A stretch of DNA of 64,000 nt from Cyanobium sp. NS01 (GTDB lineage Bacteria > Cyanobacteriota > Cyanobacteriia > PCC-6307 > Cyanobiaceae): assembly GCF_014280235.1 (NCBI RefSeq), contig NZ_CP047940.1, positions 2,294,001-2,358,000 on the forward strand, in the 5' to 3' direction. Made by a program: the position numbers and the translations under genes. Within the stretch, counting starts at the first letter, position 1; each line of letters starts with the position of its first letter. The notes beneath the pieces are model-generated. The model was given only the letters and a program-made list of their open reading frames with translations, did not search any database and was not told the origin of the DNA. Positions 12,406 through 59,183 of the stretch are shown here, one piece after another.

Positions 12406-12833
12406 TGCAGCTGCCGGGCACCACCCATCTCCACCACGATGCGCAGCCGCGACTCCCGGCGGGTGAGATCGATCAGGGAACTCAGCTCCCCTGTGGAAAG
12501 CACCTTGCCCTCCAGCAGCCACAGGAGGATGGGCCCGCCGCCCTCGAGCAGGCTGCCCAGCTGGGGCATCACCCGATGCACCTCACCCACAGCAGCCGTG
12601 CGGCCCACGCACTGGTGGCCGAGATGGGGTGGGCGCACGCCATGCAGCTGCATCAGAAAGGCCTCGGGATCGCCGAGGCCCCGGGCCGACGTGATCTGGG
12701 CGCGATAGCCCGCGGCGCGCAGCCGGCGCATCAGCCGGGTTTCGGCACCGCCTTCGAGGGGGGCGAACAGGGCAAGGGCCCCTGCTTTCTCAAGGTCCTG
12801 CCGGAATCCACGACCGGAGAGCAGCAGTGGCAT
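12369..12833 (-). CDS. ndhN: NAD(P)H-quinone oxidoreductase subunit N
   Basis: 154 residues from the ATG at 12833 ([20 protein letters not shown]); an extension of nine codons upstream is possible. The segments [35 protein letters not shown] and [10 protein letters not shown] are characteristic of NdhN, a hydrophilic subunit specific to the cyanobacterial/plastid NDH-1 complex that works in respiration, cyclic electron flow around PSI and carbon concentration at the thylakoid. It is the first gene of the minus-strand set with ldpA and the Ycf45-like gene. Confidence 0.9.
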
Positions 12834-13050
12834 GGTGAGGTCGGCTCGGTCTGCCGGCAAGTTTGACAGCCCCGGCCCCGTTTCGCTCCAGACGCCACCG
12901 CCCGGCAGGCCCGGAACCGCAGCCGCAGCACCTCACGAACACCGCCGCGCAGTCGCGGACACACCGCCGGGATCCGATCACCCTCCAGGCCGTGAGCCAG
13001 GAGGGGGTCAGGTCATGCGTTACATTTGATCGGTGTGCTTCGAATCCGCG
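12834..13050. other. Gene-free divergent spacer between ndhN and the rplC leader
   Basis: No ORF with the local codon bias. It must hold the promoters for ndhN (leftward) and the ribosomal operon (rightward). The stretch 13010-13045 (ggtcatgcgttacatttgatcggtg) is the only AT-richer patch and could include a -10 (TACATT at 13021-13026), but no matching -35 is seen. A TTGACA at 12863-12868 has no suitable partner downstream. Confidence 0.5.
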
Positions 13051-13457
13051 CCCGTCCGCTAGCCGGGCCTCCGGATCCCTGCACCCGATCACCAGTGGTG
13101 GTGATCGATCCGGCCCAAGCGGAGGGTCCAGATCTCGATGTCAGGCTCCGGCCTGAAGCGCGATCGCCGATCCACCGCCGGGAAACTTCCTGAACGCACC
13201 AGCCCCTCTACGGAGTGCGGCCAGTCCGGTCCAGGCCAGTCCCAGCCGCGCTGAACAGAGTCCGCTCTGTCTCGCTAGCGCCCTGAGCTTCGTGATCCAG
13301 GAATCCCATCGCTCGTCGGTGGTCGCCTGCGGGTGATCCAGCGACAGCCACCCGTCTGCTCCAGGCAGACGGATCAGTGCCGCTTCCTGACCAGAACGTT
13401 CAAGGCCCTGCCAGACCAACGCTTCCTCTGCCTCAGCTTCACCGGATGCGTCCGGTG
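13051..13457 (+). promoter_or_regulatory. Structured leader RNA region ahead of the rplC operon
   Basis: This 400-nt stretch in front of rplC has no credible gene but several perfect inverted repeats. (1) GATCACCA/TGGTGATC with loop GTGG at 13087-13106, enclosed by CCGGATC/GATCCGG (13071-13077 with 13107-13113), GGG/CCC and CCGCT/AGCGG (13056-13060 with 13118-13122). (2) TCAGGC-TCCG-GCCTGA at 13141-13156. (3) ACAGAG-TCCG-CTCTGT at 13255-13270. (4) CCGTCTGC-TCCAG-GCAGACGG at 13352-13372. (5) CACCGGA-TGCG-TCCGGTG at 13440-13457, 26 nt before the start codon. Loops 2, 3 and 5 are of the stable UNCG class. An autoregulatory or attenuating leader is inferred. Confidence 0.55.
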
Positions 13458-13483
13458 GTCCAGCTGGCGTTGACTCCCTACCT

Positions 13484-14131
13484 ATGTCCATCGGCATTCT
13501 TGGGAAGAAACTGGGCATGTCCCAGTTCTTCGACGAGGCAGGCAAGTCCATCCCGGTCACCGTGATCGAGGCTGGCCCCTGCCGCATCACCCAACTCAAA
13601 TCCAGCAGCACGGACGGCTACACCGCCGTGCAGCTCGGCTTCGGCGACATTCGCGAGAAGCTGGTCAACAAGCCCGCCAAGGGCCACCTGGCCAAATCCG
13701 GCGAGGAGGTGCTCCGCCATCTCAAGGAGTACCGAGTCGACAGTCTCGATGGGCTGGAGCTCGGCGCCGTCGTCTCTGTTTCGGCCTTTGAGGCTGGCCA
13801 GAAGGTCGATGTGAGTGGCGACACCATGGGCCGGGGCTTCTCCGGCTACCAGAAGCGCCACGGCTTCAGCCGCGGCCCGATGACCCACGGCTCCAAGAAC
13901 CACCGCGAGCCCGGCTCCACCGGTGCCGGCACCACGCCCGGCCGCGTCTACCCCGGCAAGCGGATGGCCGGCCGCTATGGCGGCAAACAGATCACCACCC
14001 GCGGCCTCGTGATCCTCAAGGTGGACACTGAGCGCAACCTGCTGGTGGTGAAGGGATCCGTGCCCGGCAAGCCCGGAGCCCTGCTGAACATCTGCCCGGC
14101 GAACCGGGTGGGCGCCAAGGCCGGGAACTGA
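13484..14131 (+). CDS. rplC: 50S ribosomal protein L3
   Basis: 215 residues beginning [20 protein letters not shown], the standard L3 opening, with the extended rRNA-penetrating loop [29 protein letters not shown] (about 117-145) and the C-terminal [14 protein letters not shown]3 nucleates 50S assembly near the peptidyl-transferase centre. It is the first gene of the cluster, because rpsJ is in the str operon at 58.9 kb, and it follows a long hairpin-rich leader. Confidence 0.98.
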
Positions 14132-40073: not shown

Positions 40074-42374
40074 GCCGACCGCAATCATGCGGGCCAGGAA
40101 GAAGGACCAAGTGGTCGCGATGCCGCCCAGCAGGTAATGGGCGACACCCACGGCACGGCCCTGGGTGATGGAAAGGGCGCGGGGCTGAATGGCCGGCGCC
40201 ACCTTCAGCTTGTTATGAGCCCAGACGATGGACTCAATCAGCTCTTGCCAGTAGCCGCGGCCACTGAACAGGAACATGAGGCTGAAGGCCCAGATGAAGT
40301 GGGCACCCAGGAACATCAGGCCGTAGGCACTGGAGCTCGAGCCATAGCTGTTGATCACCTGTGCGGCCTGGGCCCACAGGAAGTCACGCAGCCAACCATT
40401 GATGGTGATGGCGCTCTGGGCAAAATTGCCGTTGGTGATGTGCTGGACGCTGCCGTCAGCATTGACGGTGCCCCACACGTCGCTCTGCATCTTCCAGGAG
40501 AAGTGGAAGATCACGATTGACAGGGAGTTGTACATCCAGAACAGGCCGAGGAACACGTGGTCCCAAGCCGACACCTGGCAGGTACCGCCACGACCGGGGC
40601 CGTCGCAGGGGAAGCGGAAACCGAGGTTCGCCTTGTCGGGAACGAGGCGGGAGCTGCGGCTGTAGAGCACACCCTTCAGCAGGATCAGCACGGTGACGTG
40701 GATCGTGAAGGCGTGGATGTGGTGGACCATGAAGTCCGCCGTGCCCAGGGGGATCGGAGCAGCGGCGACCTTGCCACCCACCGCCACCACGGCGCCATTG
40801 AACACTTCACTCACGCCGGCGAGGGCGTTGGGAGCGGTGCTGCCGGCTGCAGCGGCGTGCAGACCCTGGATCCACTGCGCGAAGATGGGCTTCAGAGCAA
40901 TGGCGGAGTCGCTGAACATGTCCTGGGGACGGCCCAGGGCACGCATGGTGTCGTTGTGGATGTAGAGGCCGAAGCTGTGGAAGCCGAGCCAGATGCACAC
41001 CCAGTTCAGGTGGCTGATCAGGGCATCGCGGGCCTTGAGGACGCGATCCAGCACGTTATCGATGTGCTTGGCGGGGTCGTAGTCACGCACCATGGCAATG
41101 GCAGCGTGGGCACCGGCACCAACGATCAGGAAGCCTCCAATCCACATGTGGTGGGTGAAGAGTGAAAGCTGAGTGGCGTAATCAATCCCGATGTAGGGAT
41201 AGGGAGGCATCGCATACATGTGATGCGCCACGATGATGGTCAGCGAGCCGAACAAGGCCAGGTTCACGCCGAGCTGGGCATGCCAGCTGGTGGTCATGAA
41301 CTCGAACAGACCATCGTGGCCCTTGGGAGCCGGGAACAGCAGGGGGTCGCCCTTCTGACCTTCCAGGATTTCCTTGATGCTGTGGCCGATGCCCCAGTTG
41401 GTGCGGTACATGTGGCCCGCCACAATGAACAGCACGGCGATCGCCAGATGGTGATGCGCAATGTCTGTCATCCAGAGGCTGCCCGTCACAGGATTCAAAC
41501 CACCCTTGAAGGTGAGGAAATCGCTGTAGGCCGCCCAGTTACCGGTGAAGAAGGCGGAGATGCCAGCACCGAATCCGGGGTAGAGCTGCGAGATAACATC
41601 CTGGTTGATGAACTCGTGGGGCAGCGGGATGTCGGCATAGGAGGCGATGGTCTTGCCATTGATCGCCAGCGGCTGGCCGGCATCAATGGCATCCATCAGA
41701 GCCGTGGTGGGCAGGGACACGTGCAGGAGGTGCCCTGTCCAGGACAGGGAGCCCAGGCCAAGCAGTCCAGCCAGATGGTGGTTGAGCATCGACTCAACGT
41801 TCTGGAACCACTCGAGCTTGGGGGCTGCTTTGTGGTAGTGGAAGACGCCCGCGTTGAGCATCAGGCCGGCCATCACCAGAGCGCCGATTGCCGTGCAGAG
41901 CAATTGGAACTCATTGGTGAAGCCCCAGGCCCTCCACACGTGGAAGAGTCCGGAGGTGATCTGAATGCCGTGGAAGCCGGCACCCACATCACCATTGAGA
42001 ATTTCCTGGCCAAAAATGGGCCAGACCACCTGGGCTGAAGGCTTGACGTGCAGAGGGTCAGCCAGCCAGCCGGTGTAGTTGGAGAAGCGGGCTCCGTGGA
42101 AGAAGGCGCCGCTCAACCAGATGAAAATGACGGCCAGATGGCCGAAGTGAGCAGAGAAGATCTTGCGAGAGACCTCTTCGAGGTCGCTCGTGTGGCTGTC
42201 GAAATCGTGAGCGTTGGCGTGGAGGTTCCAAACCCAGGTGGTGGTTTTGGGACCTTTGGCCAAGGTTCTGTCGAAGTGTCCGGGCTTTTCAAAAAGCTCG
42301 AACGTGGCCGGAACGGGGTTCCGGTCGACCATGGCCTTGGCCTTTTCCCCACGCTCTGGTGGGCTGATGGTCAT
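40071..42374 (-). CDS. psaA: Photosystem I P700 apoprotein A1
   Basis: 767 residues from the ATG at 42374 ([20 protein letters not shown]). The frame is open upstream, but that part is not PsaA-like. The FX loop is [21 protein letters not shown]. Helices and histidines ([33 protein letters not shown] split at the N-side) follow the family. It is cotranscribed with psaB. A leader of roughly 200 nt, rich in inverted repeats, precedes it. Confidence 0.99.
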
Positions 42375-42590
42375 CGAGACGTTCCTCGAGGGACGGGGTC
42401 GAGGTGGTGATCCACCCCTGGAAGCCATCGCATCCGCGCGAGGCGGAGACGGATGACTGATGGGCCCCATGAACGGACCTGCCGGAGCCGGGCCTGTCAT
42501 GGGCTCCAGCCGGCAGGGGCCTCGCGAAGTGGCGAGATCCGTTGCCATGGCTGGGGCTTTGGGCCCCAGGTAGGGGACCGCTGGCGGCAC
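42375..42590 (-). promoter_or_regulatory. Structured psaA leader and candidate promoter
   Basis: No gene is seen between psaA (42374) and the divergent lipoprotein (42789). On the psaA strand a -10-like TATAGT maps to 42589-42594, implying a leader of about 200 nt. Exact inverted repeats in it are CTGGGGC/GCCCCAG (42551-42557, 42563-42569), CCTGCCGG/CCGGCAGG (42478-42485, 42510-42517), CCCATGA/TCATGGG (42466-42472, 42497-42503) and GGTGG/CCACC around 42410. The second and third cross, so they are alternatives or a pseudoknot. GTTACAAA at 42625-42632, upstream of the -10, resembles half of an RpaB (HLR1) site. A regulated leader is inferred. Confidence 0.45.
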
Positions 42591-42788
42591 TATAAGGGTC
42601 AAATCCATGCCCCTTGGGCGCCCAGTTACAAAGGTTCAATCCGGCGCCTTCCCAGGCCAGCACTGGGGTCTGCTGGGCAGTTAGAGATACGCCATTCCAA
42701 TACTTTCCATCTGCTTTGTTACATCGTCAGCCTGGAAAGAAGTCTGTCGGTGACACAGGCGGGTCTCCATCGCCTGCCTGCCAGCAGA

Positions 42789-58862: not shown

Positions 58863-59183
58863 ATGTCCACCGCCATCCCCCAGCAGAAGATCCGCATTCG
58901 CCTGAAAGCGTTTGATCGGCGCATGCTTGATCTCTCCTGCGAAAAAATCATTGAAACGGCTGACCACACAGCTGCCACGGCGATCGGGCCGATCCCACTG
59001 CCCACCAAGCGCAAGATCTACTGCGTGCTGCGCTCGCCCCACGTCGACAAGGATTCCCGGGAGCACTTTGAAACCCGCACCCACCGGCGCATCATCGACA
59101 TCTACAGCCCTTCGGCCAAGACGATCGACGCTCTGATGAAGCTCGATCTGCCCAGTGGTGTGGACATCGAAGTGAAGCTCTGA
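58863..59183 (+). CDS. rpsJ: 30S ribosomal protein S10
   Basis: 106 residues from the ATG at 58863 ([20 protein letters not shown]). [56 protein letters not shown] and [11 protein letters not shown] are diagnostic. In most bacteria rpsJ heads the S10 operon; in cyanobacteria it closes the str operon, as here, after a 208-bp spacer. Confidence 0.98.

Follow-up and report, generated by a model that had tools for sequence, protein, structure and literature searches.

The spacer between ndhN and rplC in Cyanobium sp. NS01 holds a predicted, structured mRNA leader that spans about 13033-13483 of the window, the 64,000-nucleotide stretch of DNA analyzed here, and covariation across the family, small cyanobacteria of oceans and lakes, shows three of its elements, P1/P2, P3 and P5, to be conserved as structures before rplC. 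We consider it probable, on comparative grounds, that this region forms the 5' UTR of the rplC operon mRNA and that it acts in cis as an autoregulatory element on translation.

The leader is flanked by ndhN on the minus strand (Pfam NdhN) and on the other side by the operon that it precedes:

13484-14131, plus strand: rplC (L3), first gene of the operon (NCBIfam).

The gene order after rplC is rplD, rplW, rplB, rpsS, rplV, rpsC, rplP and rpmC (NCBIfam). The claim made from the letters of the window that rpsJ is located elsewhere is borne out, since rplC heads the operon and rpsJ was found at 58893-59177 of the window, 45 kb from the leader in the same genome; the leader is therefore not of the rpsJ-led S10 type.

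Upstream regions were chosen by the position of rplC and not by motif, and comprised 112 family loci and 20 class-level loci that were kept separate. The block CGCUAGCCGGGCCUCC is present in 112 of the 112 family loci with at most three changes. The 5' core of the leader was aligned in 57 representatives of the 112 loci, picked by a similarity limit, and consists of the following helices, for which the percentages of paired cells refer to the 57 representatives:

13035-13038 with 13081-13084, plus strand: P1, the weakest helix of the core, 66.2% of cells paired.
13045-13048 with 13072-13075, plus strand: lower part of P2, 93.0% of cells paired.
13050-13054 with 13064-13068, plus strand: upper part of P2, 99.3% of cells paired.
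13086-13107, plus strand: P3, the first hairpin of the original prediction (9 bp, loop GUGG), 95.3% of cells paired, with nine of nine counted pairs double-changed.

Both sides are changed in 21 of the 24 pairs of P1-P3 (57 sequences), which was matched in none of 500 shuffles. The proportion of paired cells is 88.4% versus 72.7% in shuffled alignments, the number of double-changed cells is 261 versus 84, and on all five measures none of the 500 shuffles reached the observed value. When the alignment was slid by 1-3 columns, pairing fell to 31-46%. RNAalifold alone recovers P2 and P3, with both sides changed in 16 of 18 pairs (57 sequences), and a model of P1-P3 (R1) matches the window at 13035-13117 with 80.1 bits. 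Compensatory changes, the test that the original prediction had set for itself, are abundant in P1-P3 (57 sequences) as well as in P5 (67 sequences, described below), and this covariation supports its reading of the region as an RNA leader. The same prediction had nested the first hairpin in a single stem from 13056 to 13122; the arms of this stem exist (CCGGATC/GATCCGG and CCGCT/AGCGG), but the conserved pairing is a different one, the stem being outcompeted by P1/P2, in which CCGGA pairs with an upstream UCCG (57 sequences).

Part of the P2 loop is complementary to a segment close to the rplC start, and a second copy of the loop motif lies between the two:

13057-13063, plus strand: A, CGCUAGC, on the 3' side within the P2 loop (9 nt), conserved and complementary to E.
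13463-13469, plus strand: E, GCUGGCG, complementary to A and located at -21 to -15 relative to the rplC start.
13273-13279, plus strand: D, a second CGCUAGC found as a sequence copy, a possible alternative partner of A or E.

In 138 leaders the first position of A carries the same letter in 87% and the remaining six positions in at least 98%, while E starts 18-24 nt upstream of the rplC start codon across leaders. At least six contiguous A:E pairs are present in 128 of 139 leaders and missing in 11, namely nine of genus g9, L172 (genome G060) and L135; counts of 139 leaders omit L186, which is cut off, and the partial L195 and L196, and counts of 138 also omit L172. Variation in E was followed in 215 leaders, 177 of them distinct and 167 counted, after the ten without pairing (nine of g9 and L172) had been set aside beforehand. 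Positions 1, 3 and 5, which face C, A and C, vary in 0, 1 and 0 of the 167 distinct leaders, and positions 2, 4 and 6 in 2, 14 and 13, with pairing preserved by every change at these last three positions; these are counts of sequences and not of independent events, with 11 of the 14 changes at position 4 coming from one genus. Over the first six positions there is one exception to pairing-keeping change, and the seventh is free, being other than G in 22 of 167 and often unpaired. A change on both sides is found in one leader only, L083 (CGCCAAC/GUUGGC). This variation supports, without proving, a putative long-range pairing in which the P2 loop (A) spans about 400 nt to reach E, next to the start codon of rplC. 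The lowest-energy fold of the window's leader pairs A with E unaided, and it contains A:E at the cost of P1 and P2, suggesting that the local and the distant folds compete.

The D region holds GCUAGC in 104 of 139 leaders, a wobble variant in 5 and neither in 30. A:E is kept in leaders that lack D, those of g9 and L172 excepted, and A:E would therefore be the more general contact. Most leaders have a palindrome, GCUAGC, in A, and a kissing interaction between two such loops was considered as a conserved function; we think it unlikely, because L021, L083 and L101, in which A is altered, have lost the palindrome yet pair with E. Two genera deviate from the common arrangement. Leaders of genus g9 (L078, L181, L184, L185, L187, L189-L192) keep the P2 block, lack A:E complementarity and have a different start region. 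In genus g18, which has small genomes (L077, L174-L180, L182, L183, L188), A lies 194-205 nt from the start codon, D is absent and E reads GCUAGCC.

The region 13033-13510 as a whole has a folding energy 3.6 standard deviations under that of shuffles, with none of 100 as low. Taken in pieces, the z values are -1.87 for 13033-13120, -2.87 for 13112-13182 (0 of 200 shuffles), +0.24 for 13180-13255, -0.09 for 13250-13300, -1.58 for 13330-13400 and -1.49 for 13430-13500. Two further helices follow P3:

13119-13128 with 13169-13178, plus strand: P4, enclosing the hairpin at 13141-13156 (6 bp, loop UCCG), from fold energy.
13180-13243, plus strand: P5, GGG-AA-ACU (13180-13187) with AGU-CCC (13238-13243), with an AA bulge and a variable apex, from covariation.

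The region with the lowest z value is that of P4, whose outer 5-nt match is full in 67 of 139 leaders versus 28.6 with partners swapped, and is 4 of 5 in the window itself; P4 is found only in part of the family and is missing in some relatives. The local fold near P4 pairs CCC (13114-13116) with the GGG of P5 (13180-13182), and this modeled pairing possibly competes with P5. The P5 pattern is present in 132 leaders and missing in six, among which a model of P5 (R2) finds the element clearly in L009, L050 and L053 and weakly in L188 (E 0.07), and does not find it in L101 or L173. P5 was aligned in 67 representatives of the 105 leaders in which it is at most 62 nt long, a set that leaves out the window, whose P5 is too long. 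In these 67 sequences the lower helix is paired in 99.5% of cells with GC/AU exchanges, A-U replacing G-C at the second pair in 24 sequences; ACU/AGU is nearly invariant, the AA bulge is kept, and the upper helix is weaker, with 79% paired. Double-changed cells number 82 versus 27 in shuffled alignments, and the observed values were reached in 0 of 500 shuffles on four measures and in 18 of 500 on the fifth. With the window's genome excluded from the model, R2 finds 13177-13249 as its sole match in the whole genome at E up to 10 (35.6 bits). The energy of P5 is no better than that of shuffles, and its support is therefore comparative rather than energetic.

As originally described, 13051-13457 contains five perfect inverted repeats with arms of at least 6, three of them with UNCG-class loops (UCCG at 13141-13156, UCCG at 13255-13270 and UGCG at 13440-13457), and the last ends 26 nt upstream of the rplC start. 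The three that lie outside P3 and P4 were taken from the inverted-repeat count:

13255-13270, plus strand: hairpin, 6 bp, loop UCCG, in a variable part.
13352-13372, plus strand: hairpin, 8 bp, 5-nt loop, in a variable part.
13440-13457, plus strand: P7, 7 bp, loop UGCG, just before E.

Dinucleotide-keeping shuffles hold a mean of 0.79 hairpins with arms of at least 6 and reach five in 0.2% (P=0.002), and of the 318 windows of equal length (407 nt) in the 64 kb, 0.6% reach five. When arms of 5 are allowed, the count is still five and the shuffle mean rises to 2.8 (P=0.154), which is not unusual, so that the asserted excess over composition stands for arms of at least 6 and lapses for arms of at least 5. 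Only the hairpin at 13086-13107 belongs to the family-conserved core, and the other four sit in variable parts. A hairpin at the position of P7 is common among leaders, though this part is variable, and in most of the 138 leaders the stretch from -75 to -23 has a lower folding energy than its base-shuffled copies (mean z -1.7; 69% below -1).

The original prediction also held that 13051-13457 contains no credible protein gene, and neither the antisense nor the small frames found support. An antisense gene at 13141-13611 was rejected, as it has only partial matches, with stops and gaps, in 29 other loci of the first set, and a 118-aa piece of this frame has no Pfam match. Small leader frames were rejected likewise: peptide-like similarity occurs in several frames and on both strands at once, in some cases with stops, with 33 hits for a 40-aa forward frame that covers P1-P3, 43 for a second one and 45 for a reverse frame, a distribution that fits nucleotide conservation. 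The idea that the region consists of chance hairpins of a GC-rich spacer, or of a misread gene, can appeal to a hairpin count that is unusual only for the longer arms, but it is hardly credible in the face of the covariation, the family-wide presence of the element, the lack of a conserved frame and the occurrence of the same structure in AT-rich genomes of the family as well.

Mimicry of 23S rRNA was also considered and rejected. Local alignments of the conserved blocks with the genome's own 23S rRNA are not above shuffles, and short strings common to leader and 23S, such as GCUAGC, were judged to be chance; there is therefore no 23S mimicry that would point to a ligand, a result that speaks neither for nor against L4.

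The two ends of the leader are marked by the following features:

13470-13483, plus strand: C/U-rich start region without a Shine-Dalgarno core, from the sequence of 138 leaders.
13021-13026, plus strand: -10-like box TACATT, with a predicted transcription start at about 13033-13035.

The last 14 nt before rplC have a mean pyrimidine content of 83% (138 leaders), and GGAG, GAGG or AGGA occurs between -20 and -4 of rplC in 0 of 138 leaders. In other cyanobacterial families, rplC has a Shine-Dalgarno core in 19 of 20 cases and a GTG start in 19 of 20 (L057-L076). Many of these 20 upstream regions fold below base-shuffled copies (8 shuffles each), so that rplC may be preceded by separate leaders in these families.

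At the 5' end, 105 of 138 leaders carry a TAnnnT box whose offset from the P2-loop motif is -36 or -37 (77 and 28, other offsets reaching at most 13); the box begins 14-15 nt upstream of P1. Only 18 of 138 leaders have a -35-like hexamer, and a consensus scan yields no full sigma-70 site. Given this conserved box before P1, the predicted transcript includes the hairpins, and the RNA 5' end is predicted to lie at the base of P1. Terminator-like sites in 12800-13520 number 0. These features bear on two further explanations. A processing or stability element, in which the 5'-terminal stem and the hairpins would shield the long operon mRNA from ribonucleases, agrees with P1 beginning at the predicted 5' end and with the UNCG loops of the hairpins, but leaves the pairing-keeping variation of E and the near-invariant P2 loop unexplained, and we regard it as improbable. 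That the spacer between ndhN and rplC contains an independent small RNA gene and not a leader is very improbable: the spacer is divergent and has a promoter-like box of its own, yet it lacks a terminator-like site, and E keeps a nearly fixed position at -18 to -24 from the rplC start.

We return to the autoregulatory leader as the preferred reading, for which the following mechanism is proposed. Excess ribosomal protein of the operon would bind the P2-P5 part of the leader, and the bound protein would stabilize the A:E contact; A:E would in turn block 30S entry at the start lacking a Shine-Dalgarno sequence, and the operon would be turned down. D, where present, could form an all-Watson-Crick helix with A, which would free E, or could bind E instead, and these alternatives would make the leader a two-state switch. 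By analogy, L4 would be the most likely ligand, because it is used by known leaders of rplC/rplD operons.

It is unlikely, though far from negligible, that the leader works without a ribosomal-protein ligand, its A/D/E switch following growth, light, temperature or ribosome traffic, or setting a low basal initiation. Few parts of the leader are as conserved as A and E, the A motif is a palindrome in most leaders and recurs in D, likeness to the genome's own 23S rRNA is lacking, and some such RNAs may bind no ribosomal protein, according to the accessible text of Eckert and Weinberg (PMC7247131). However, the constant bulge and near-invariant ACU/AGU within the covarying P5 helix resemble a binding site, and D is absent in 30 of 139 leaders. 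About as doubtful is a wider proposal according to which these leaders form a picocyanobacterial family whose 5'-terminal loop reaches across ~170-430 nt to a start without a Shine-Dalgarno sequence, with D as competitor in a two-state switch; the family would have arisen with the loss of the rplC Shine-Dalgarno sequence, and its ligand may be a ribosomal protein new as a regulator, for example L3.

Searches with R1 delimit the distribution of the element. R1 matches 180 of 201 family genomes and 128 of the 131 of good quality, rplC itself being matched in 183 of 201 and unmatched in 18, and in a draw of 291 genomes from the class it matches 37, of which 36 are in the family and the one outside is weak (E 0.026); both searches used filters that lose weak matches. 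Three good genomes are negative for R1: the contig of G033 carries just the 3' part of rplC, G106 gives no match to rplC, and G060 has rplC together with a strongly altered element (L172). Second R1 matches occur in 6 of the 201 family genomes, two of them with E of about 0.02 in the class draw. In the 20 rplC upstream regions of other cyanobacterial families, R1 finds nothing and R2 gives weak matches only, the best at E 0.08. An exact pattern was matched in at least 80 contigs of a named genome collection, titled Synechococcus, Prochlorococcus, Cyanobium, Vulcanococcus, Aphanothece and others; among the 80 exact matches listed, 76 are followed by a correctly oriented rplC 256-420 nt downstream; the remaining 4 lie on contigs that break off ahead of rplC but carry ndhN. 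One of these 4 contigs, titled as a Bifidobacterium breve MAG, has the leader L215 (CALPNT020000113.1) along with ndhN and is most likely misbinned cyanobacterial DNA. No exact pattern match was found in viral contigs, and no blastn match in phages.

Leaders of ribosomal-protein operons are known from other bacteria. In Escherichia coli the S10 operon is led by rpsJ, and its leader, which is bound by L4, contains a terminator-type attenuation site. The present leader is like the S10 leader in that the operon holds rplC and rplD and translational control is plausible; unlike it, the operon is led by rplC with rpsJ 45 kb off, and the searched stretch around the leader has no terminator-like site. 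In the S15/rpsO and S4 alpha operon leaders, a pseudoknot traps or blocks the ribosome. The likeness lies in a distant pairing near the start that holds off the ribosome, as proposed here, whereas the folds are different ones; the comparison covered an Rfam scan of the present region. A search of 12834-13520 against Rfam 15 gives no match with an E of 5 or less, and in 7 relatives no family reaches its gathering score in the region.

The element had been called possibly not yet described, and this is not entirely accurate: an rplCD operon leader was predicted as cluster 5 by Axmann et al. in 2005, where it is listed as not tested (PMC1242208). According to the accessible text, cluster 5 comprises three sequences (columns SS1, MIT and WH8; 345 columns, Z -7.58, reverse -10.18) and is said to correspond to the E. 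coli S10 r-operon. Its place and lineage are the same, and the rplC leader is very probably this cluster 5 element; a structure is absent from the accessible part of that report (PMC1242208), and the family-wide P1-P5, the A:E contact and the covariance model go beyond it.

An L4 leader has also been predicted before rplC, rplD, rplW and rplB in Archaeoglobi, and is rated borderline by its authors (PMC7247131); it is archaeal, and it is likened to the present leader by gene order and was compared via the Rfam scan. The accessible text of the same work (Eckert and Weinberg 2020, PMC7247131) takes as the best guess a ligand already established for the same operon in other organisms, the rule by which L4 was chosen here; it regards the first gene as a poor guide to the ligand and has no mention of cyanobacteria. 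In the accessible part of a 2009 screen of model cyanobacteria (PMC2662882), rpl10 and rps2 leaders are named and an rplC leader is not, and the main text of a 2024 screen of 50 genomes (PMC11109978) names neither rplC nor cyanobacteria. In the open-licence literature searched, leaders of ribosomal-protein operons of picocyanobacteria were predicted in 2005, and no experimental test of the picocyanobacterial rplC leader was found there.

With a defined structure and two predicted contacts (A:E and P5), control of the largest ribosomal-protein operon of picocyanobacteria becomes directly testable. Few phototrophs are as abundant as Prochlorococcus, marine Synechococcus and Cyanobium, and ribosome production is expensive for a cell. 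The P1-P5 models provide annotation for a region that is blank in Rfam, and the leader would be a naturally occurring example of how initiation is controlled where a Shine-Dalgarno sequence is lacking.

Two minor observations concern other parts of the window. A short block, AGTCTGACAGC (given in plus orientation, with variants), lies at ~12862-12873 just before the ndhN start and is conserved in a 30-genome alignment; it is possibly a promoter or start-site element of ndhN. The Rfam psaA RNA (RF01752), a known cis-regulatory family, matches 42371-42596 on the minus strand with 83.4 bits.
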